Shown here: positions 7,080-56,771 of the stretch, piece after piece | Layout: each line of letters begins with the position of its first letter | How positions within the stretch are numbered: the first letter of the stretch is position 1 | Source: Pectinatus sottacetonis | GTDB lineage: Bacteria > Bacillota > Negativicutes > Selenomonadales > Selenomonadaceae | DNA: 64,000 nucleotides | Direction: 5' to 3' | Assembly (NCBI RefSeq): GCF_015732155.1 | Contig: NZ_WIQK01000001.1 | Coordinates: 1,498,001-1,562,000 of the forward strand | The notes under the pieces: model-generated | Told to the model about the DNA's origin: nothing | What the model saw: only the letters and a program-made list of their open reading frames with translations | Databases searched by the model: none | Translations under genes and position numbers: made by a program

Positions 7080-7762
7080 ATGCAGCAACAATGGTGTCAA
7101 GTGCGGCTGTGGCCGTGGAAAACAGATTGTTGTCAGAGGTTACTATGCAGCTGAAAAAACCACAATCGGAAGTATTGATGGGCCATATAATAAGTGCGCT
7201 GAAAATTGCGCATGTAGATAAAACACAATTGACCGCTATTGCTGTGAATGTGGGACCGGGTTCTTTTACAGGACTTAGAATCGGATTAGCAGCGGCGAAA
7301 ATGATGGCTTATACGTTGAAAATCCCGATAATTGGTGTGGATATTGGAGAAGTGCTGGCTTATCATTATCCTGTGGATAATCTGTACAGTGCGGTATTCA
7401 TTGATGCACAGAAGAACAATGTTTATTTCGCTATTTATAATTGGTGTAGCGGAATACTGCAATGTGTAGAAAATATGCAGGTACTTTCTCTGCCTGAAGC
7501 TGTACAAAAGTGCGAAAGCAGAGATAAGCAGGTAATCGCAATGGGAGATATAGTACAAAAAAAACAGGATGTTTTTCTTAATTGTAGTAATACAGTTGTT
7601 GCTCCACCGTATCGTGTGATGCCATGTGCTGCAAATACTGCCTTTGCCGGCTTGGAAAAGCTGAAAAGGGGAGAGGTGAGTAATGTAATGAACATGGAAC
7701 CGCTGTATATAAGACGCTCGGAAGCGGAAGAACTGTGGGAGAAACATCATAGAGAAGAATAA
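7061..7762 (+). CDS. tsaB: tRNA t6A synthesis protein TsaB
   Basis: TsaB (YeaZ) is an ASKHA-fold scaffold protein that pairs with TsaD in t6A synthesis. The N-terminal ILAIDAATMVSSAAV and the NVGPGSFTGLRIGLAAAK segment near residues 65-82 are the family signatures. At 233 residues it has the usual length. It starts inside the end of tsaE, and rimI begins one base after its stop, so the three genes form one tight operon. Confidence 0.94.
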   Translation: MPILAIDAATMVSSAAVAVENRLLSEVTMQLKKPQSEVLMGHIISALKIAHVDKTQLTAIAVNVGPGSFTGLRIGLAAAKMMAYTLKIPIIGVDIGEVLAYHYPVDNLYSAVFIDAQKNNVYFAIYNWCSGILQCVENMQVLSLPEAVQKCESRDKQVIAMGDIVQKKQDVFLNCSNTVVAPPYRVMPCAANTAFAGLEKLKRGEVSNVMNMEPLYIRRSEAEELWEKHHREE

Positions 7763-7763
7763 T

Positions 7764-8225
7764 ATGAACATGATATTCAGGCAAATGCAGCCGTCAGATG
7801 CCGGGGCGGTAGAATTGGTGGAAAAGGCATGTTTTGCAATGCCGTGGTCGCGGAAAGCTTTTTGGGAGGAAGCGGCTAAAAAAGATGCATATTATTTATT
7901 GGCTGTGGACAAGAGTATGGATCGCGAAAAAGTTGTTGGCTATGTGGGTGTCTGGCTTATATTTAATGAGGGACATATAACAAATGTAGCCTTAATACCT
8001 GAGTATAGAGGCAAGGGTATAGCTTCCTTAATGATAAAGAACATTATTTCTGTAGTAAAAAAAAGGGCTATAGACTCTATGACTTTGGAAGTTAGACCTT
8101 CTAATGAAAAAGCAATAAGTTTATATAAAAAGTTTGGTTTTAAAAGTGTGGGACGGCGTCCGCATTATTATCTTAATAATAATGAAGATGCTGAGATTAT
8201 GTGGCTGATTTTCAATGATATTTAA
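7764..8225 (+). CDS. rimI: Ribosomal protein S18-alanine N-acetyltransferase
   Basis: This is a GNAT-fold acetyltransferase of the RimI family, which acetylates the N-terminal Ala of ribosomal protein S18. The acetyl-CoA-binding motif A is VALIPEYRGKGIASLMI (RGKGIA near residue 89), and LEVRPSNEKAISLYKKFGF is the conserved RimI C-terminal block. The length of 153 residues is typical. It directly follows tsaB, the standard arrangement. GNAT substrate cannot be proven from sequence, but position and motifs agree. Confidence 0.9.
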   Translation: MNMIFRQMQPSDAGAVELVEKACFAMPWSRKAFWEEAAKKDAYYLLAVDKSMDREKVVGYVGVWLIFNEGHITNVALIPEYRGKGIASLMIKNIISVVKKRAIDSMTLEVRPSNEKAISLYKKFGFKSVGRRPHYYLNNNEDAEIMWLIFNDI

Positions 8226-50996: not shown

Positions 50997-52094
50997 TTAA
51001 TAATTCTTATTGGTGATTTTTAATTTTACTTCTTTAAATGTCATGAAGCAGACAAACACAATAGCGGAATAACCGGCAAATGGATAAAGAATATTTACTA
51101 ATTCATCAAAAGGAATTATACCGCCAAAAAATACGCCGATGAAAGTGAGTACAGTGGCAATTATATTGAATTTTTTTGTTTTGTCAACGGCAAATTTTCT
51201 GACGACCATTAAGAGAAAAGAAGCCACTGCTGAATAGATCGATACCACTATCAGAATAGAAAATAATAACCCCAAAACAGGTGATATATATCTGGCAATG
51301 GCCAAGGTAGGAACCTGCTGATTTACTATAAGATGATTATAAACTATTTCACCTATTACTAATAAAATAATTGCTATAGTAAAACCTAAGGTTCCGATAA
51401 TACCAGAAATGCGTGCTTCTTTTAAATTATTAGCCGATGCTCCGCAGTTTATTTGAAACGGAATACTGACGATAAGTGCTAAAAAGGCATATAATGTAGC
51501 AGACCATAACCAGCTTGACGAGGCTGCTTTAAAACCTAATACAGGCATTAGAGAAGCTTTACTAAGCAAAAGTGTTGGTTGTCCAGCCAGTGTTTTTAAG
51601 GCAAACAGCCCTATTATCGCTAAAAATACTATTTTTACTGGACCAATTACTCCAATAATATCAATGAGCTTTTCTACACCTAGCAAAGCAGTCCCTAAAG
51701 CTAAAATACCTATTATACCTGTTCCAACATATGTGGTCATACCAAAATACTGATTTATAGTGGCACCTCCACCGGCTAACATAACAACAAATATACAATA
51801 AATTAAAGTAATACTATACCAGATATAAGCTTGTCCTAACAATTTACCACAATAATATTCAAAAATATCATAGGGATTTTTAAATTTATTTATCTGTCCT
51901 CTGCCATATAGAATATAAGTTATAGCACTCATTATAATAAGAAATATGATCCCACCTAAAATGCCATTAATTCCATACACCGCAAAAAACTGTAGTGCCT
52001 CCTGGCCGGTGGCAAAACCAGAACCTATCCAGTAAGCTGATAGGGCTCCTGCCAGGATAATGAGTTTTTTAATACTTATTGAGTCCTTATTCAT
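50997..52094 (-). CDS. YkvI-family membrane transporter
   Basis: A 365-residue membrane protein with about ten helices in the pattern of the YkvI family, which is related to amino acid/sodium symporters of the LeuT fold. ALSAYWIGSGFATGQEALQFF in helix 1 (core GSGFATGQE) is the family signature with an unwound glycine segment. ATG 52094 is chosen, because GAGGAGTG lies 7 bases upstream; the frame is open to 52196. It lies downstream of the UPF0597 and ATC-hydrolase-like genes on the same strand, suggesting uptake of their substrate. That is inference; no YkvI substrate is known to me. Confidence 0.82.
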   Translation of the reverse strand: MNKDSISIKKLIILAGALSAYWIGSGFATGQEALQFFAVYGINGILGGIIFLIIMSAITYILYGRGQINKFKNPYDIFEYYCGKLLGQAYIWYSITLIYCIFVVMLAGGGATINQYFGMTTYVGTGIIGILALGTALLGVEKLIDIIGVIGPVKIVFLAIIGLFALKTLAGQPTLLLSKASLMPVLGFKAASSSWLWSATLYAFLALIVSIPFQINCGASANNLKEARISGIIGTLGFTIAIILLVIGEIVYNHLIVNQQVPTLAIARYISPVLGLLFSILIVVSIYSAVASFLLMVVRKFAVDKTKKFNIIATVLTFIGVFFGGIIPFDELVNILYPFAGYSAIVFVCFMTFKEVKLKITNKNY

Positions 52095-52432
52095 TTTTGT
52101 CACTCCTCGTATAATAAGTTTTGTAAGCAAGACATCCGCCTTACTTACAAAAGGAACTTCTGATGCTAGAATAGATTTTAATGATCTTTGTAGCAAAGGT
52201 TATGTCTTTTCACTTTTTCAGCGCCTTACAGCGACTGCTTGTAGTAATAAAGATTGAAAATTATGAAATTTCTTTTAAATTTATATAGAAAATAGCTGCC
52301 AAAATAAGCATTATTATAAAACTAAAAAAATATACACTTTATTTTAGCAGCTTCATCATTGAAGTTATGTCAGATAAAATTTTCATATAAGATTTTAACC
52401 TGGATTATTAACTAGGAAGGAAAGTTTTATGT
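52095..52432 (-). other. Leader/spacer between the UPF0597 gene and the transporter gene
   Basis: A 338-base gap. It holds the terminator at 52294-52352 and, just before the transporter, a 13-bp hairpin (TTTTGTAAGTAAG with CTTGCTTACAAAA, about 52117-52150) that ends 20 bases before the ribosome-binding site. No riboswitch core was recognised. The hairpin position would suit control of transporter translation. Confidence 0.45.
52294..52352 (-). terminator. Probable terminator of the UPF0597 gene
   Basis: AGCTGCCAAAATAA and TTATTTTAGCAGCT pair with one bulged base around a 31-base AT-rich loop. It lies 80 bases beyond the stop at 52433 on the minus strand. Confidence 0.5.
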
Positions 52433-53698
52433 TCAGTTACCTATCATAATATTAAGAATTTCAATATCAGTTGATTTCATACCATTTTTTCCTACCCGAC
52501 TAATGTTTTGTATGGTTTTTTCATAATCTGTTTCCATAAGACCTTCACCGAACGGGAAGGAAAGTCCGCGTTTGGCAAGCTCATAGCCCATTATTCCAGC
52601 ATCTATGGCACTAGCGATTTTAGCAGCACACGAATCCTTGGCTCCGTCGCAGACTATACCAGCTACATTACCAAGTGCATTGATAAGAGTTTTGCCGATC
52701 ATATCTTCACCGGCACCGTTTAAATAAGCAATACCGCAGGCAGCTGAGGCTCCAGCCGAAACAGCACCACAATATGCAGATAAGTTACCAATAAATCTTT
52801 TTTGATGTATAGATAACAGATTAGCGAGAACTAATGCTCGATATAGGCATTCTTCATTACTGCCCATCTCCGTAGCATATACAAGTACCGGCATTGTGCA
52901 TGTTATGCCTTGATTACCACTGCCGGAATTTATTACTACAGGAAGGGCACAGCCATTCATACGCGCGTCTGAGCCAGCAGCGGCGGCAGCTTTGGCCCTT
53001 ATACGAATGTCATTGCTGTTATAAGCCATTAATGTACGGCCTACTTGTGCCCCCCATTCGTGAGTAAGACCTTCCTGGGAAATAGCACTGTTATATTCGA
53101 TCTGTCGGTGTATAATGTCCTCGATATCAGATAGTTTTACATTGTTGGCAAATTCAAGGATATTTTTTATACTTAAGCTTGATTTGTTACTATTTGATGT
53201 GGTAAGGAGTCCAGATTGTTCAAATAACACGATACCATTTTTTTCTATTTTAGCAATGTGATTATGTTTGCTTCTTATTTCAACAGCTGCGGTATCATTC
53301 CCATATCTTACTTCAGCACGGATAAAAAGATTTTCTTCATTTTCCTCTAGTACACATTTACATATTTTTTGCCTTAGTAATTGGTTGGCGATCCTTAATT
53401 GTTCAGGAATGACTTCACTGATAACTTGTAGTTCTAAATTAGCTTTACCGGCTACAGCACCAAGGACAGCAGCTGCAGCAACACCTTTTTGACCGCCAGA
53501 ATTTGGAACAACTACTCCTTTTACGTTTTTTATAATATTACCACTGCACCGCAATATCATTTTTTCTGGAATATGTCCAAGGATTTCTCTAGCTTTAGCA
53601 GCAGCATATGCTATGGCAATTGGTTCTGTGCATCCCATGGCAGGGAGAAGATCTTCTTTAAGTATTTTTACATAGTTATCATATTGCAGTTTTTCCAT
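52433..53698 (-). CDS. UPF0597/CyuA-type L-cysteine desulfidase or serine dehydratase-alpha-like protein
   Basis: The 421-residue protein belongs to the UPF0597 family, related to the alpha domain of iron-sulfur serine dehydratases and to cysteine desulfidase CyuA, which turns L-cysteine into pyruvate, ammonia and sulfide. LLPAMGCTEPIAIAYAAAKA near residues 17-36 carries the first cluster Cys. Further Cys that fit a [4Fe-4S] site are in AYCGAVSAGASAACG and IVCDGAKDSCAAK. NSGSGNQGITCTMPV is the family core. GGAGGAAAT precedes the ATG. The ATC-hydrolase-like gene is 26 bases upstream on the same strand, so they are co-transcribed. The substrate is likely a sulfur amino acid. Confidence 0.85.
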   Translation of the reverse strand: MEKLQYDNYVKILKEDLLPAMGCTEPIAIAYAAAKAREILGHIPEKMILRCSGNIIKNVKGVVVPNSGGQKGVAAAAVLGAVAGKANLELQVISEVIPEQLRIANQLLRQKICKCVLEENEENLFIRAEVRYGNDTAAVEIRSKHNHIAKIEKNGIVLFEQSGLLTTSNSNKSSLSIKNILEFANNVKLSDIEDIIHRQIEYNSAISQEGLTHEWGAQVGRTLMAYNSNDIRIRAKAAAAAGSDARMNGCALPVVINSGSGNQGITCTMPVLVYATEMGSNEECLYRALVLANLLSIHQKRFIGNLSAYCGAVSAGASAACGIAYLNGAGEDMIGKTLINALGNVAGIVCDGAKDSCAAKIASAIDAGIMGYELAKRGLSFPFGEGLMETDYEKTIQNISRVGKNGMKSTDIEILNIMIGN

Positions 53699-53724
53699 AG
53701 ATTTATTTCCTCCGAATCATAAAA

Positions 53725-54228
53725 TTATTTTTTCTTGGAAAAAGCAATTTTGCATGTTGGATATCCATTAGCAATAGTATCAGTTAACTTAAAATCATAC
53801 CCCATAGATTTAGCAATATTTCTGTCACCATCCATAGCCATATCACAAAGCTTTACGCATGTTTCATCATCGATACCTGCATCTTGCCAGCCTTTTAGTA
53901 ATGGGCAATGATGAAATTCCATTTCCATTTTGTCATTATTTTTTACTTTGAATTCTACTTCAAAAGTTTTTAATGTACTTCCAGTTAAAAAAGTGTCAGC
54001 AAAACATTTTACACTATCAGGATTAGTACATTGTTTTTTAATTTCATTACCTTGCATTTTGCCAGTTTGGGCAATTGCTTCGCGAATAATTTTTTCGACT
54101 TCATTGGCTTTACCAGTTTCCTTGGCCTTTACATAGGTTAGACCAGTCCAAATAGCTCTGTGAGCTATAGCGCTTCTTTGTAAATCAGCCATTGGATCAC
54201 CCTTGATGGAAGTTTTGTTATTAATCAT
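53725..54228 (-). CDS. L-2-amino-thiazoline-4-carboxylate hydrolase-like protein
   Basis: A 167-residue protein with the pattern of the ATC-hydrolase family (named for a Pseudomonas enzyme that opens a cysteine-derived thiazoline ring). RSAIAHRAIWTGLTYVKAKE forms the N-terminal helix. EFHHCPLLKGWQDAGID and CVKLCDMAMDGDRNIA hold His and Cys residues that could bind a metal, and YPTCKIAF ends the protein. Members in anaerobes are widespread and untested, so real activity is unknown. GGAGAGGG precedes the ATG. It begins the operon that continues with the UPF0597 gene and is divergent from the GntR regulator. Confidence 0.75.
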   Translation of the reverse strand: MINNKTSIKGDPMADLQRSAIAHRAIWTGLTYVKAKETGKANEVEKIIREAIAQTGKMQGNEIKKQCTNPDSVKCFADTFLTGSTLKTFEVEFKVKNNDKMEMEFHHCPLLKGWQDAGIDDETCVKLCDMAMDGDRNIAKSMGYDFKLTDTIANGYPTCKIAFSKKK

Positions 54229-54693
54229 GTATATCCCTCTCCTTAATATGATTACAAAATATTAATAAAAATAAGTAATAATAATAGAACATATGTCTTT
54301 TACCTTTAACGTAATCATATCACGGCATAAAAAATAATGCAATAAAAATTTTATATCATTATAATTAAAATTAAAATTTAAAATAGATATGCCTTTAAGC
54401 ATAATAAAATTAGGAAATTATAATAAATTTAATGATAAGATTCTAACCATATACTGATATGATTAAAAAACGTGACTTGCGGATTAATCTAATTATGCTA
54501 TATGTTTTGTACTTATGAAATGATTGCATTATTGTATATATCAGATATAATATATTATAATAGTGTTTTATATTAATATGATCTAATCATGCCCAATTTA
54601 TTGCAAAATATATTGTACTCGTAAATATTTGTATGTGTTGATTTGTAGAATAGTGTATTAATATGAAGCATTTAAATTCCTAACGAGGTAATC
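54229..54693. promoter_or_regulatory. Divergent control region with repeated ATATGATTA boxes
   Basis: This 465-base AT-rich region between divergent genes contains the 9-base box ATATGATTA at 54246-54254 and 54457-54465, its inverse TAATCATAT at 54312-54320, and a palindromic ATATGATCTAATCAT at 54576-54590. Such spacing suits binding sites for the GntR/FCD regulator encoded next to it. No gene was found in it. Confidence 0.45.
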
Positions 54694-55320
54694 ATGAATA
54701 AAAATTTAAGTACGCTAAAAGCACAAATTTATAATGATCTTTTTTCTGATATTATCAGTGGTAAATATAAAATAAATACTATTTTAACAGAAAAATTCTT
54801 AATGGAAAAATATAATGTTAGTAGGGCACCTATTAGAGAAGCACTAACCCAATTAACAGCTACAGCTATTTTATCGAGTATACCACGGCAGGGTTATAAG
54901 ATAGTCGAGCCAAGTCCTAAGCAAATGCGTGATATAGTTAAATTCCGTACTGCTTTAGAACCAGCTTTTCTAGAAATGTATTATTCGTGCATAGCAGATA
55001 AATCAATAGGAGAACTGAAGCAAATTTGTTATTTATATGATAAGTCTCCGGCAACTGATTTTATGACGCGCTGGCAATATAATTGTGAATTTCATTTAAA
55101 GCTATTTTCTAACTATAATAATAATTATTCTTATTCCTTGTTGAATGATGCATTATCAATACAAACAATGTTTTTTGTTCAAACAAAACACTATGCATCT
55201 AATAGCTTACATCTTGCTGTGCTGGATTATATTGAAAAGAAGGAAATAAATATTGCTATAAATATTTTAAAGGCAGATATAGGCGATTTTCTTTTAAATA
55301 CGACAGCTCCATCAGAATAA
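54694..55320 (+). CDS. GntR-family regulator with FCD domain
   Basis: The 208-residue protein has an N-terminal winged helix (TEKFLMEKYNVSRAPIREALTQL near residues 31-53, core VSRAPIREAL) and a helical FCD domain with FRTALEPAF near 93 and NCEFHLKLF near 131, giving candidate metal- or ligand-binding Asp/His residues. FadR/FCD regulators sense small carboxylates or amino acids. It is divergent from the ATC-hydrolase operon and upstream of the tartrate/malate dehydrogenase, so it may control either. Its stop is followed within 2 bases by a dead TnpB fragment, which may have trimmed its original 3' surroundings. Confidence 0.88.
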   Translation: MNKNLSTLKAQIYNDLFSDIISGKYKINTILTEKFLMEKYNVSRAPIREALTQLTATAILSSIPRQGYKIVEPSPKQMRDIVKFRTALEPAFLEMYYSCIADKSIGELKQICYLYDKSPATDFMTRWQYNCEFHLKLFSNYNNNYSYSLLNDALSIQTMFFVQTKHYASNSLHLAVLDYIEKKEINIAINILKADIGDFLLNTTAPSE

Positions 55321-55694: not shown

Positions 55695-56771
55695 ATGAAA
55701 GAATATAACATAGCGGTCATAGCTGGTGATGGAATAGGAACAGAGGTAACAGCTGAGGGAATAAAAGTATTAAAAATAATTGAAGAATTAGATAAAGATA
55801 TACAGTTTTCTTTTACTTATTTTCCCTGGGGGTGTGAGTATTATAAAAAAACAGGTAAGATTATGGATGATGATGGATTGGAAAAACTGCGAAATTATGA
55901 TGCTGTATATTTAGGGGCTGTAGGAGCTCCGGAGGTACCTGATTATATATCATTACGGGATTTGTTGATAAAAATCAGACAGGGTTTTGACCAGTATGTG
56001 AATTTACGACCAGTAAAATTATTACGGGGAGCTCCATGTCCTTTGATTGGAAAAAGCCAGGCTGATATAGATATGATTGTTGTGCGGGAAAATTCCGAAG
56101 GTGAATATGCAGGAGCAGGTGATTGGCTTTATAAAGATAAACCAGAAGAAGTTGTTTTACAGACAAGTGTGTTTTCTCGTAAGGGAACGGAAAGGATAAT
56201 ACGTTATGCTTATGAACTGGCGCGCAGAGAGCATAAAAGTATTACTAGTGTAAGTAAAGGTAATGCACTAAATTATTCAATGGTGTTTTGGGATAAGATA
56301 TTTGCCGAAGTGGGAAAAGAATATACTGATGTCAAACAGTATAGTTATTTAGTAGATGCGGCAGCAATGTTTTTTGTGAAAGATCCAGCCCGTTTTGAAG
56401 TAGTAGTGACATCAAATTTATTTGGGGATATTTTGACTGATTTGGGAGCAGCAATTGCTGGAGGAATGGGGCTGGCTGCTGGTGCTAACATTAACCCAGA
56501 AAAAGAATATCCGTCAATGTTTGAGCCTATTCATGGTTCAGCACCGGATATTGCCGGTAAAAGTATAGCTAACCCGATGGCTGCTATCTGGTCGGCAGCA
56601 CAAATGATGGAATTCTTTGGCGAGAAAAAGTGGAGTAATAAAATGATAATGGCTATTGAAAAAGTTTTGACAGACAAGAAAGTATTATCAATAGATTTTG
56701 CTGGAACAGCAACAACTAAGGAAGTAGGTGAAGAGATAGGAAAACAGCTAAGGAAAATATATACCATTTAA
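55695..56771 (+). CDS. Tartrate/D-malate dehydrogenase (decarboxylating), IMDH-like
   Basis: A 358-residue NAD-dependent beta-decarboxylating dehydrogenase. IAVIAGDGIGTEV opens the fold. YLGAVGAPEVPDYISLRDLL and RQGFDQYVNLRPVKLL are characteristic of the tartrate/D-malate dehydrogenase branch and distinguish it from LeuB and isocitrate dehydrogenase. The metal Asp residues are in SNLFGDILTDLGAAIAGG. GSAPDIAGKSIANP is the NAD loop. Enzymes of this branch oxidise D-malate to pyruvate and CO2, or act on tartrate. AGAAGGAA precedes the ATG. The FCD regulator upstream may control it. Confidence 0.88.
   Translation: MKEYNIAVIAGDGIGTEVTAEGIKVLKIIEELDKDIQFSFTYFPWGCEYYKKTGKIMDDDGLEKLRNYDAVYLGAVGAPEVPDYISLRDLLIKIRQGFDQYVNLRPVKLLRGAPCPLIGKSQADIDMIVVRENSEGEYAGAGDWLYKDKPEEVVLQTSVFSRKGTERIIRYAYELARREHKSITSVSKGNALNYSMVFWDKIFAEVGKEYTDVKQYSYLVDAAAMFFVKDPARFEVVVTSNLFGDILTDLGAAIAGGMGLAAGANINPEKEYPSMFEPIHGSAPDIAGKSIANPMAAIWSAAQMMEFFGEKKWSNKMIMAIEKVLTDKKVLSIDFAGTATTKEVGEEIGKQLRKIYTI

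Follow-up and report, generated by a model that had tools for sequence, protein, structure and literature searches.

The window, a stretch of 64,000 nucleotides from Pectinatus sottacetonis, carries three genes on the reverse strand and a regulatory gene diverging from them (Table 1). As the first-pass annotation had it, the genes of a PF14196 protein and a UPF0597 protein are 26 bases apart (53699-53724), the transporter gene lies on the same strand and the regulator is divergent; ORF coordinates and strands bear out both statements. A longer gap of 338 bases separates the UPF0597 gene from the transporter gene, which makes their co-transcription less certain. This gap contains an element shared with other genomes, and a hairpin that is a possible attenuator. 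A search for known riboswitches or T-boxes ahead of the transporter gave no Rfam match above the gathering score, and the four weak hits (E 0.02 to 0.69) were put down to chance. ORF calling was mechanical, with labelled ORFs taken first, or the longest, at a minimum of 80 aa; a number of starts lie too far upstream, and false ORFs may be among the calls. The listed transporter ORF, for one, starts farther upstream (TTG, 52196) than the ATG given here. No gene for an SDR, an Fe-ADH or DhaK was found in the window locus. A tartrate dehydrogenase-like gene (55695-56771) was considered as a member of the unit and rejected, as it matched nothing in loci L033-L072 when used as a query.

Table 1. 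Features of the locus, numbered from the first letter of the window.
Feature	Position	Strand	Basis or remark
Membrane transporter gene	50997..52094	-	365 aa; ATG at 52094, stop ending at 50997
Terminator-like hairpin	52119..52152	-	just ahead of transporter start; conservation not seen
Element in UPF0597-transporter gap, TTCAANGNNGAAGYNGYTARRATAA	52339..52363	-	same place in three other genomes
UPF0597 [4Fe-4S] desulfidase-like gene	52433..53698	-	421 aa; ORF and Pfam
PF14196 ('ATC hydrolase' family) gene	53725..54228	-	167 aa; ORF and Pfam
Possible third, weak site, TTAATATGATTA	54243..54254	+	2 mismatches to 12-mer
Probable regulator site, GTGATATGATTA	54312..54323	-	sole perfect GTGATATGATYA match in own genome
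Probable second site, CTGATATGATTA	54454..54465	+	1 mismatch to 12-mer
GntR-family regulator gene, divergent	54694..55320	+	ORF and Pfam

The divergent protein is a GntR regulator (Pfam, E 3e-15), as first annotated, but the FCD domain also assigned to it is only probable, its match lying below the cut-off (21.7 versus 24.3 bits). The motif TGATATGATYA, with at most one mismatch, is present in 24 of 24 intergenic regions, a count made on the very sequences from which the motif was derived and against a control that shuffled single bases only. Over 10 genomes, GTGATATGATYA occurs 25 times and its reversed control pattern 5 times, and the single perfect copy in the P. sottacetonis genome lies at the window locus. 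Chance alone produces matches at the two-mismatch level of the third site across the window (17 found where 11.1 were expected). Fourteen of the 15 perfect GTGATATGATYA sites outside UPF0597/PF14196 loci were inspected; 12 fall within ORFs and two (L196, L200) at an ORF start, and a wider regulon was therefore rejected. Judged by its sites, the GntR protein looks like a local regulator of the unit. A hydantoinase link in Pelosinus, where sites lie 4-5 kb from TIGR01879 genes, was likewise set aside, these sites sitting inside ORFs.

The UPF0597 protein (PF03313, E 5.6e-59) matches solved desulfidases over nearly its full length (9he0, E 1.7e-21, residues 10-418). The accessible part of the source on MmCyuA names C23, E25, R223, N239, C287, C329, C336 and K339 as cluster ligands and active-site residues (PMC12647591). 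Alignment columns provide a counterpart of each in the window protein, which retains the cluster ligands C310, C350 and C357 together with C23, E25, R246, N262 and K360. The initial description of a CyuA-like desulfidase is thus right as to catalytic residues but not as to clade: the protein is 36% identical to E. coli CyuA, which falls in a separate, starred group of seven rows in a tree of 90 UPF0597 proteins (a quick tree, with long branches flagged elsewhere in it). Near the active site, 13 positions are constant or nearly so within each group and differ between the two; C250 and C267, each present in 23/23 members of the window clade, are replaced by Ala in the CyuA clade (7/7 and 6/7, respectively). 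By sequence, the window protein belongs to a subfamily separate from CyuA, and given its low identity and these differences its substrate may not be that of CyuA. The unit as a whole resembles the CyuPA (YhaO/YhaM) operon of E. coli, which likewise combines a transporter, a UPF0597 [4Fe-4S] desulfidase with the same active-site residues and its own regulator. It differs from CyuPA not only in the clade of the desulfidase but also in its transporter, which has no significant similarity to CyuP, in its regulator (GntR instead of CyuR) and in the additional PF14196 gene.

The PF14196 match is well above the Pfam cut-off (73.3 versus 28.1 bits, E 4.7e-20). The predicted fold is V4R/TRAPP-like: Foldseek returned seven chains at E <= 0.001, all TRAPP, and the closest folds are those of TRAPP subunits and of the V4R domains with which MopR and PoxR sense phenol. 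VIA Z values for the best 30 rows are 8.2-10.1 over 136-152 residues, a size that can, as the tool warns, reflect merely a common arrangement in helical proteins. C108, C128 and C159 are invariant among 42 aligned relatives and may form a metal site. PF14196 has been related to the V4R and HNOB domains, and three conserved cysteines noted for V4R and PF14196 (PMC5847659). The likeness to V4R/TRAPP-Bet3 proteins (the sensors MopR, PoxR and DmpR; Bet3) lies in the predicted fold and the three cysteines, whereas identity is only 7-12% and the window protein stands alone in a catabolic-type operon, V4R being a sensor domain in those regulators. PF14196 is a broad V4R-like family that takes its name from one Pseudomonas enzyme, and the window protein may be non-enzymatic altogether.

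No Pfam or NCBIfam model matches the transporter at E 0.001, and neither a family model nor a named YkvI sequence was found in support of the label 'YkvI' initially given to it. Roughly 11 hydrophobic stretches can be counted in it. Its structural model, of medium confidence (pLDDT 67.9), is closest in fold to LeuT/APC-type carriers, which suggests at that same level of confidence that it is LeuT/APC-like. Importers adjoining the PF14196-UPF0597 pair are mutually unrelated and comprise the 'YkvI' type, MFS, an unnamed membrane family and LIV-type ABC, the last named from a binding-protein cluster (L131 3718-4911, PF13458) and not from permease Pfam matches. The window transporter is one of these several unrelated types in that position.

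The first-pass annotation had made conserved co-occurrence a test of its reading, and the pair held. Across 380 genomes of the class, a same-strand UPF0597 gene lies within 700 bases of at least 23 of 68 PF14196 genes (a lower bound, UPF0597 matches having been picked by eye among the matches listed), and linked genes occur in at least 22 of the 54 genomes that bear PF14196. For the other 45 genes no nearby UPF0597 was seen among the matches listed, and some unlinked ones adjoin aminotransferase or arginase-family genes. Viewed from the desulfidase side, of the 26 closest UPF0597 relatives 20 have PF14196 as a neighbour. A second, biased sample of 43 further genomes was assembled by way of PF14196 loci; of its 70 PF14196 genes, 37 have a same-strand UPF0597 within 10 kb (weak or partial matches G766:C31 and G772:C1 excluded, two G782:C17 pieces merged) and 33 do not, some of them at contig ends. 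One scan was seeded with UPF0597-linked proteins and is biased toward linked loci. The pair is also found among Clostridia and in two metagenome bins of proteobacterial origin, and its adjacency is more than chance. No description of the combination was found in titles and abstract openings, a coverage that takes in few subscription journals.

The PF14196 link has been gained or lost repeatedly, as it changes 15 times on the UPF0597 tree, at least nine of these changes being forced by starred branches (L033 was counted as unpaired although it has the pair; counting it as paired would give about one change fewer). This tree left out L112, which is truncated where its locus stops, as well as L129, L130, L133 and L134, whose ORFs start like membrane proteins (hydrophobic stretches were examined for L134 alone); L128, perhaps a chimera, was kept on a long branch, UPF0597 matching in its genome over residues 213-420 only. 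In P. brassicae the UPF0597 gene of the operon is mostly lost while PF14196 and the transporter are kept, and Clostridium thailandense (L078) has PF14196 and the transporter with no UPF0597 between them. In two lineages, L131 and L059/L097 (one contig), PF14196 has a CyuA-clade gene as its neighbour, a pairing that speaks for cysteine as the intermediate. Many clostridial loci contain genes for an SDR, an Fe-ADH or DhaK/DhaL (references confirmed by Pfam), tallied from BLAST labels at any position and on both strands of a locus and not as members of a single operon. The fullest set, in L156, comprises GntR, PF14196, an ABC importer, UPF0597, an SDR, DhaK and DhaL. Such companions suggest a carbonyl co-product, which would not arise from ATC and so disfavours that compound.

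With moderate confidence, we read the locus as a small catabolic cassette under local control that acts on a masked cysteine compound, not necessarily ATC. The unit most likely takes up a compound containing cysteine, releases the cysteine and degrades it to sulfide, ammonia and pyruvate. The mask could be a ring, thiazoline or thiazolidine, or some other adduct of cysteine with a carbonyl compound. Once taken up by the transporter, the compound would be opened or unmasked to cysteine by the V4R-like PF14196 protein, possibly at its three-cysteine metal site; UPF0597, with its conserved residues, would then take off sulfide on a [4Fe-4S] cluster, yielding pyruvate, ammonium and H2S. The GntR protein would bind the conserved TGATATGATYA sites and control the operon, and nearby SDR, Fe-ADH or DhaK/DhaL enzymes, where present, would process the released carbonyl part. 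Weighing against this reading are the distance of UPF0597 from CyuA, the PF14196 genes for which no neighbouring UPF0597 was seen, the arrangements in P. brassicae and C. thailandense, and the lack of SDR, Fe-ADH and DhaK genes at the window locus. The initial proposal of uptake, ring opening and desulfuration is thus partly supported, by the conserved unit, the local-looking regulator, the CyuA residues and the pairing with CyuA-clade genes, but ATC itself as the substrate is not.

Three other explanations deserve consideration. First, the UPF0597 paralogue could be a C-S lyase, or a dehydratase, whose substrate is a serine-like amino acid or a substituted cysteine such as an S-glyceryl or other S-conjugate, with PF14196 preparing or processing the substrate and free cysteine not an intermediate. 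We find this unlikely, even though it would accommodate the separate clade with its differences beside the active site (C250 and C267 versus Ala), the DhaK/DhaL and SDR companions, a PepV-like dipeptidase in L134 and L164, and URO-D-family proteins (MtaA/CmuA-like, below NCBIfam cut-offs) adjoining UPF0597 in L057 and L157. Against it, catalytic residues are kept, CyuA-clade genes occupy the same place beside PF14196, and E. coli CyuA, in the accessible part of its description, turned over L-cysteine but neither serine, alanine nor D-cysteine (PMC9040844). Second, PF14196 could be a ligand- or metal-binding partner of the desulfidase (a sensor, or a sulfide or cluster carrier) in a unit for plain cysteine uptake and breakdown. 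The best fold matches and the published tie to V4R and HNOB domains agree with this, but one Pseudomonas member is cited as a characterised hydrolase in the accessible part of that source (PMC5847659), and the many PF14196 genes of the class lying apart from any UPF0597 seen, such as those beside aminotransferase or arginase-family genes, make it quite unlikely.

Finally, the locus could serve ATC utilisation as in Pseudomonas, PF14196 producing N-carbamoyl-cysteine that an amidohydrolase would convert to cysteine for UPF0597. Such an L-ATC hydrolase pathway, from ATC through N-carbamoyl-cysteine to cysteine, was reportedly described by Tashima in 2006 for Pseudomonas sp. ON-4a; the likeness here is one of PF14196 family name, not of comparison with the Pseudomonas sequence. 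M20 hydrolases above the TIGR01879 cut-off occur in 16/16 tested genomes, P. sottacetonis included, and one adjoins the operon in Megasphaera paucivorans. In L061, L062 and L067, others (34-38% identical to the P. sottacetonis one) are encoded at 3-6 kb from PF14196 genes and on the opposite strand. These three loci, which have no labelled UPF0597, make the ATC reading slightly more likely. Such hydrolases are, however, common (a control search matched 11 of 14 genomes, six over the cut-off), and the one operon-adjacent case among 16 genomes is convergent, next to azlC and possibly due to chance. A TIGR01879 search of the P. sottacetonis genome found no N-carbamoyl-cysteine amidohydrolase in the window locus: all matches (C1:2031806 and C1:1810848 over the cut-off, C1:400951 below it) lie outside the window (C1:1498001-1562000). 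ATC as a certain substrate is rejected and its utilisation here is improbable, since the amidohydrolase is absent from the locus, the family name rests on one enzyme of a broad V4R-like family, UPF0597 lies outside the CyuA clade and the DhaK/DhaL and SDR companions are left unexplained.

The masked-cysteine reading can be extended, speculatively and with a low probability in our view, to a modular anaerobic pathway that is present at least in Negativicutes and gut Clostridia and in which cysteine-carbonyl adducts supply carbon and energy; such adducts might be the thiazolidines that cysteine forms with glyceraldehyde, dihydroxyacetone or another aldehyde. The ring would be split by a V4R-fold metalloprotein, a second family of [4Fe-4S] desulfidases would ferment the cysteine to H2S, SDR, Fe-ADH or DhaK/DhaL enzymes would salvage the carbonyl half, and importers would be swapped freely. 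If the masked-cysteine reading is right, it would provide testable functions for PF14196, a widespread family named from one enzyme, and for a UPF0597 subfamily easily taken for CyuA, and would add a source of H2S in gut Clostridia and Pectinatus independent of CyuPA. Pectinatus in beer yields H2S, according to the accessible part of PMC12732517. Elsewhere in the class, CyuA-clade genes do stand next to CyuP relatives (L177, L178 and L185).

A unit made of a PF14196 ('ATC hydrolase' family) gene, a UPF0597 (PF03313, desulfidase-like) gene, a transporter gene and a divergent GntR regulator gene is real and conserved: ORF and Pfam analyses place the four genes where the first-pass annotation had them and confirm that PF14196 and UPF0597 lie 26 bases apart, and the pairing of these two recurs inside and outside the Negativicutes. 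The same genes occur in the congeneric Pectinatus brassicae DSM 24661 (contig NZ_JACHFH010000023.1). In P. brassicae, the operon UPF0597 gene is reduced to matches at codons 1-86 and 387-421 (locus L035, ~7442-7964), and contig C52 carries an unbroken copy, accompanied by a GntR gene and a perfectly matching putative regulator site. As far as literature searches reach, the unit is undescribed; the kind of system to which it would belong, cysteine catabolism, is already known.

Features of the locus and its surroundings (window positions)
Feature	Position	Strand	Remarks
Membrane transporter	50997-52094	minus	No family match in Pfam and NCBIfam
UPF0597-transporter gap	52095-52432	minus	
25-base element	52339-52363	minus	3' of UPF0597 stop
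UPF0597	52433-53698	minus	PF03313 well over Pfam cut-off
PF14196 gene	53725-54228	minus	Pfam PF14196 well over cut-off
Marked possible regulator site	54243-54254	plus	Weak
Marked probable regulator site	54312-54323	minus	
Marked probable regulator site	54454-54465	plus	
Divergent GntR regulator	54694-55320	plus	Pfam GntR well over cut-off; FCD slightly under cut-off
Tartrate dehydrogenase-like gene	55695-56771		Downstream of GntR gene; isocitrate/isopropylmalate dehydrogenase family; above cut-off for TIGR02089 tartrate dehydrogenase and PRK03437, under PRK08194 cut-off

Of 380 Negativicutes genomes surveyed, 54 carry PF14196, with 68 genes in all, and 171 carry UPF0597. For at least 23 of these 68 genes, spread over 22 of the 54 genomes, a UPF0597 gene lies on the same strand no more than 700 bases away, when a rough estimate from gene density predicts well under one such pair; the gap between matched parts is 37 to 51 bases in 21 of the 23 pairs (170 and 605 in the remaining two). 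The co-occurrence in other genomes on which the first-pass reading depended was thereby found. Among the 26 UPF0597 genes closest to that of the window (≥60% identity), 20 have PF14196 adjoining and six do not, including a second copy in the same genome. This copy (L058, G000:C1:1171964-1173220; 72% identical) is flanked by a MocR/EhuR-like regulator gene and an Asp/Glu racemase-family gene, and clusters in the tree with the window copy and one P. brassicae copy. Since 45 of the 68 class PF14196 genes had, among the matches listed, no UPF0597 nearby, the PF14196 family as a whole is not bound to UPF0597.

A search of named genomes, with 12 aligned PF14196 proteins as query, yielded 72 loci, 39 of them with a labelled UPF0597 gene within the retrieved stretch; this and the following out-of-class counts are biased towards linkage, because the query was built from UPF0597-linked proteins (11 of the 12 adjoin UPF0597 and the P. 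brassicae one adjoins its remnant). In the 45 loci taken further as a second set, from 43 genomes, UPF0597 was present in 41 genomes, and 37 of 70 PF14196 genes (29 genomes) had a same-strand UPF0597 within 10 kb. Cultured genera with the pair include Clostridium, Lacrimispora, Lachnotalea and Anaerocolumna; beyond Bacillota the scan showed it only in two metagenome bins, from Rhodoferax (L098) and a proteobacterium (L131). Three Treponema/Flavobacterium loci (L121, L123, L126) have PF14196 without UPF0597 across the stretch retrieved. L097, labelled Acholeplasmataceae, is the contig of genome G082, which is placed in the window's class.

The constant core is PF14196 with UPF0597; importer and side enzymes differ between loci. 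Window-type loci combine GntR, PF14196 and UPF0597 with the window-type transporter (10/72) or an MFS carrier (7/72), other loci having either LIV-type ABC genes (21/72) or a membrane family without a name (7/72), whose one tested member shows about 11 hydrophobic stretches. SDR (7/72), DhaK (10/72) and Fe-ADH (5/72) labels occur in the same loci, largely, not exclusively, in Clostridia. The fullest operon, L156 of a Lachnospiraceae MAG, comprises a divergent GntR gene, then PF14196, a binding protein, two permeases, two ATPases, UPF0597, SDR, DhaK and DhaL; another GntR and another UPF0597 gene come after these. Five loci (L145, L146, L148, L152, L153) hold UPF0597, the ABC set, DhaK, DhaL, PF14196 and a sigma-54 activator-like gene; L187 has the ABC set, PF14196, a distant UPF0597 (32%), DhaK and DhaL; and L164 includes a PepV-like dipeptidase. 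PF14196 also occurs with LIV-type ABC and DhaK/DhaL genes in L190 and others. These loci and L187 point to a possible link between PF14196 and DhaK/DhaL that does not depend on UPF0597, which L190 lacks. In a Flavonifractor MAG, a 669-aa ORF (L144:6336-8345), of which residues 445-584 form a PF14196 domain, is flanked by one PF14196 and one UPF0597 gene; L143 has a similar ORF.

The first-pass annotation called the UPF0597 protein CyuA-like; its identity with CyuA is not established. All eight residues that PMC12647591 assigns to the cluster or active site of CyuA are present in the window protein, but identity to E. coli CyuA is only 36%, 13 near-active-site positions separate 23 window-type from seven CyuA-type proteins, and a quick tree of 90 UPF0597 proteins, subject to a long-branch warning, places the two in different groups. 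Proteins 52-56% identical to E. coli CyuA adjoin CyuP relatives in L177, L178 and L185. The specificity of E. coli CyuA for L-cysteine, as reported in PMC9040844, is not simply transferable. In favour of cysteine, PF14196 also has CyuA-clade neighbours in L059/L097 (59% identical to the E. coli protein) and L131 (64%). On the 90-protein tree the PF14196 link needs 15 changes versus 25.1 in shuffles, at least nine being forced by starred branches; it is therefore clustered, yet was gained or lost several times.

The structure predicted with high confidence for PF14196 (pLDDT 97.1) finds its matches in TRAPP Bet3 and in MopR and PoxR, which are phenol sensors of V4R type, at scores that call for some caution. 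C108, C128 and C159 are invariant among 42 PF14196 sequences; PMC5847659 had earlier tied the family to V4R and HNOB domains and pointed out three conserved cysteines, and it cites an enzyme of Pseudomonas (Tashima 2006) as the ATC hydrolase. M20 hydrolases of the type needed for a Pseudomonas-like use of ATC, by PF14196, an amidohydrolase and then UPF0597, are encoded in all 16 tested genomes, but only in Megasphaera paucivorans does one adjoin the operon, and we consider this route improbable. The product of ATC hydrolase is N-carbamoyl-cysteine, hence the amidohydrolase. In L061, L062 and L067, loci without labelled UPF0597, M20 hydrolase genes stand 3-6 kb away from PF14196, so some proteins of this family may well serve an ATC-type pathway. 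The M. paucivorans gene (L207, 3985-5217) scores above the N-carbamoyl amino acid hydrolase cut-off and adjoins the GntR-transporter-UPF0597-PF14196 operon; azlC and a gene of MocR type are neighbours too.

The general sense of the first-pass annotation, cysteine catabolism, is plausible, whereas ATC as substrate is not established. What the analysis establishes is gene content, conservation, residues, a predicted fold and sites; in the proposed mechanism, whose substrates and reactions are all inferred, the transporter would import a masked cysteine, PF14196 would unmask it and UPF0597 would take off sulfide, under the likely control of GntR. Where DhaK/DhaL, SDR or Fe-ADH genes are present, they suggest a small carbonyl as the other product, and because of these companions a carbonyl adduct of cysteine is preferred over ATC. 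The window locus itself offers no direct hint of a carbonyl co-product. As DhaK is encoded somewhere in 15 of 16 tested genomes, that of P. sottacetonis included, this step could be supplied from elsewhere in the genome; DhaK genes also have other uses.

TGATATGATYA, a motif derived from the same 24 deduplicated regions adjoining the GntR gene in which it was counted, occurs with at most one mismatch in all 24 (55 sites; without mismatch in 21 regions), compared with a mean of 1.2 and a maximum of six in single-base shuffles. The sole perfect GTGATATGATYA of the genome is the minus-strand site of the window. In the ten genomes scanned, the locus contains a perfect site in all eight that have the GntR gene at this place, but not in the Pelosinus-type G029 and G108, which lack that gene there. 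Two-mismatch matches in the window (17 versus a shuffle mean of 11.1, with 6 of 100 shuffles reaching 17) do not exceed what shuffles often produce, which leaves just two of the three marked sites as credible. The pattern of the 25-base element, drawn from P. sottacetonis, P. brassicae, G025 and G162, is absent from every other of 379 class genomes. The gap between UPF0597 and the transporter is predicted to fold more stably than shuffled versions of it (z -4.4) and finishes with a terminator-like hairpin immediately before the transporter gene; it is possibly an attenuator.
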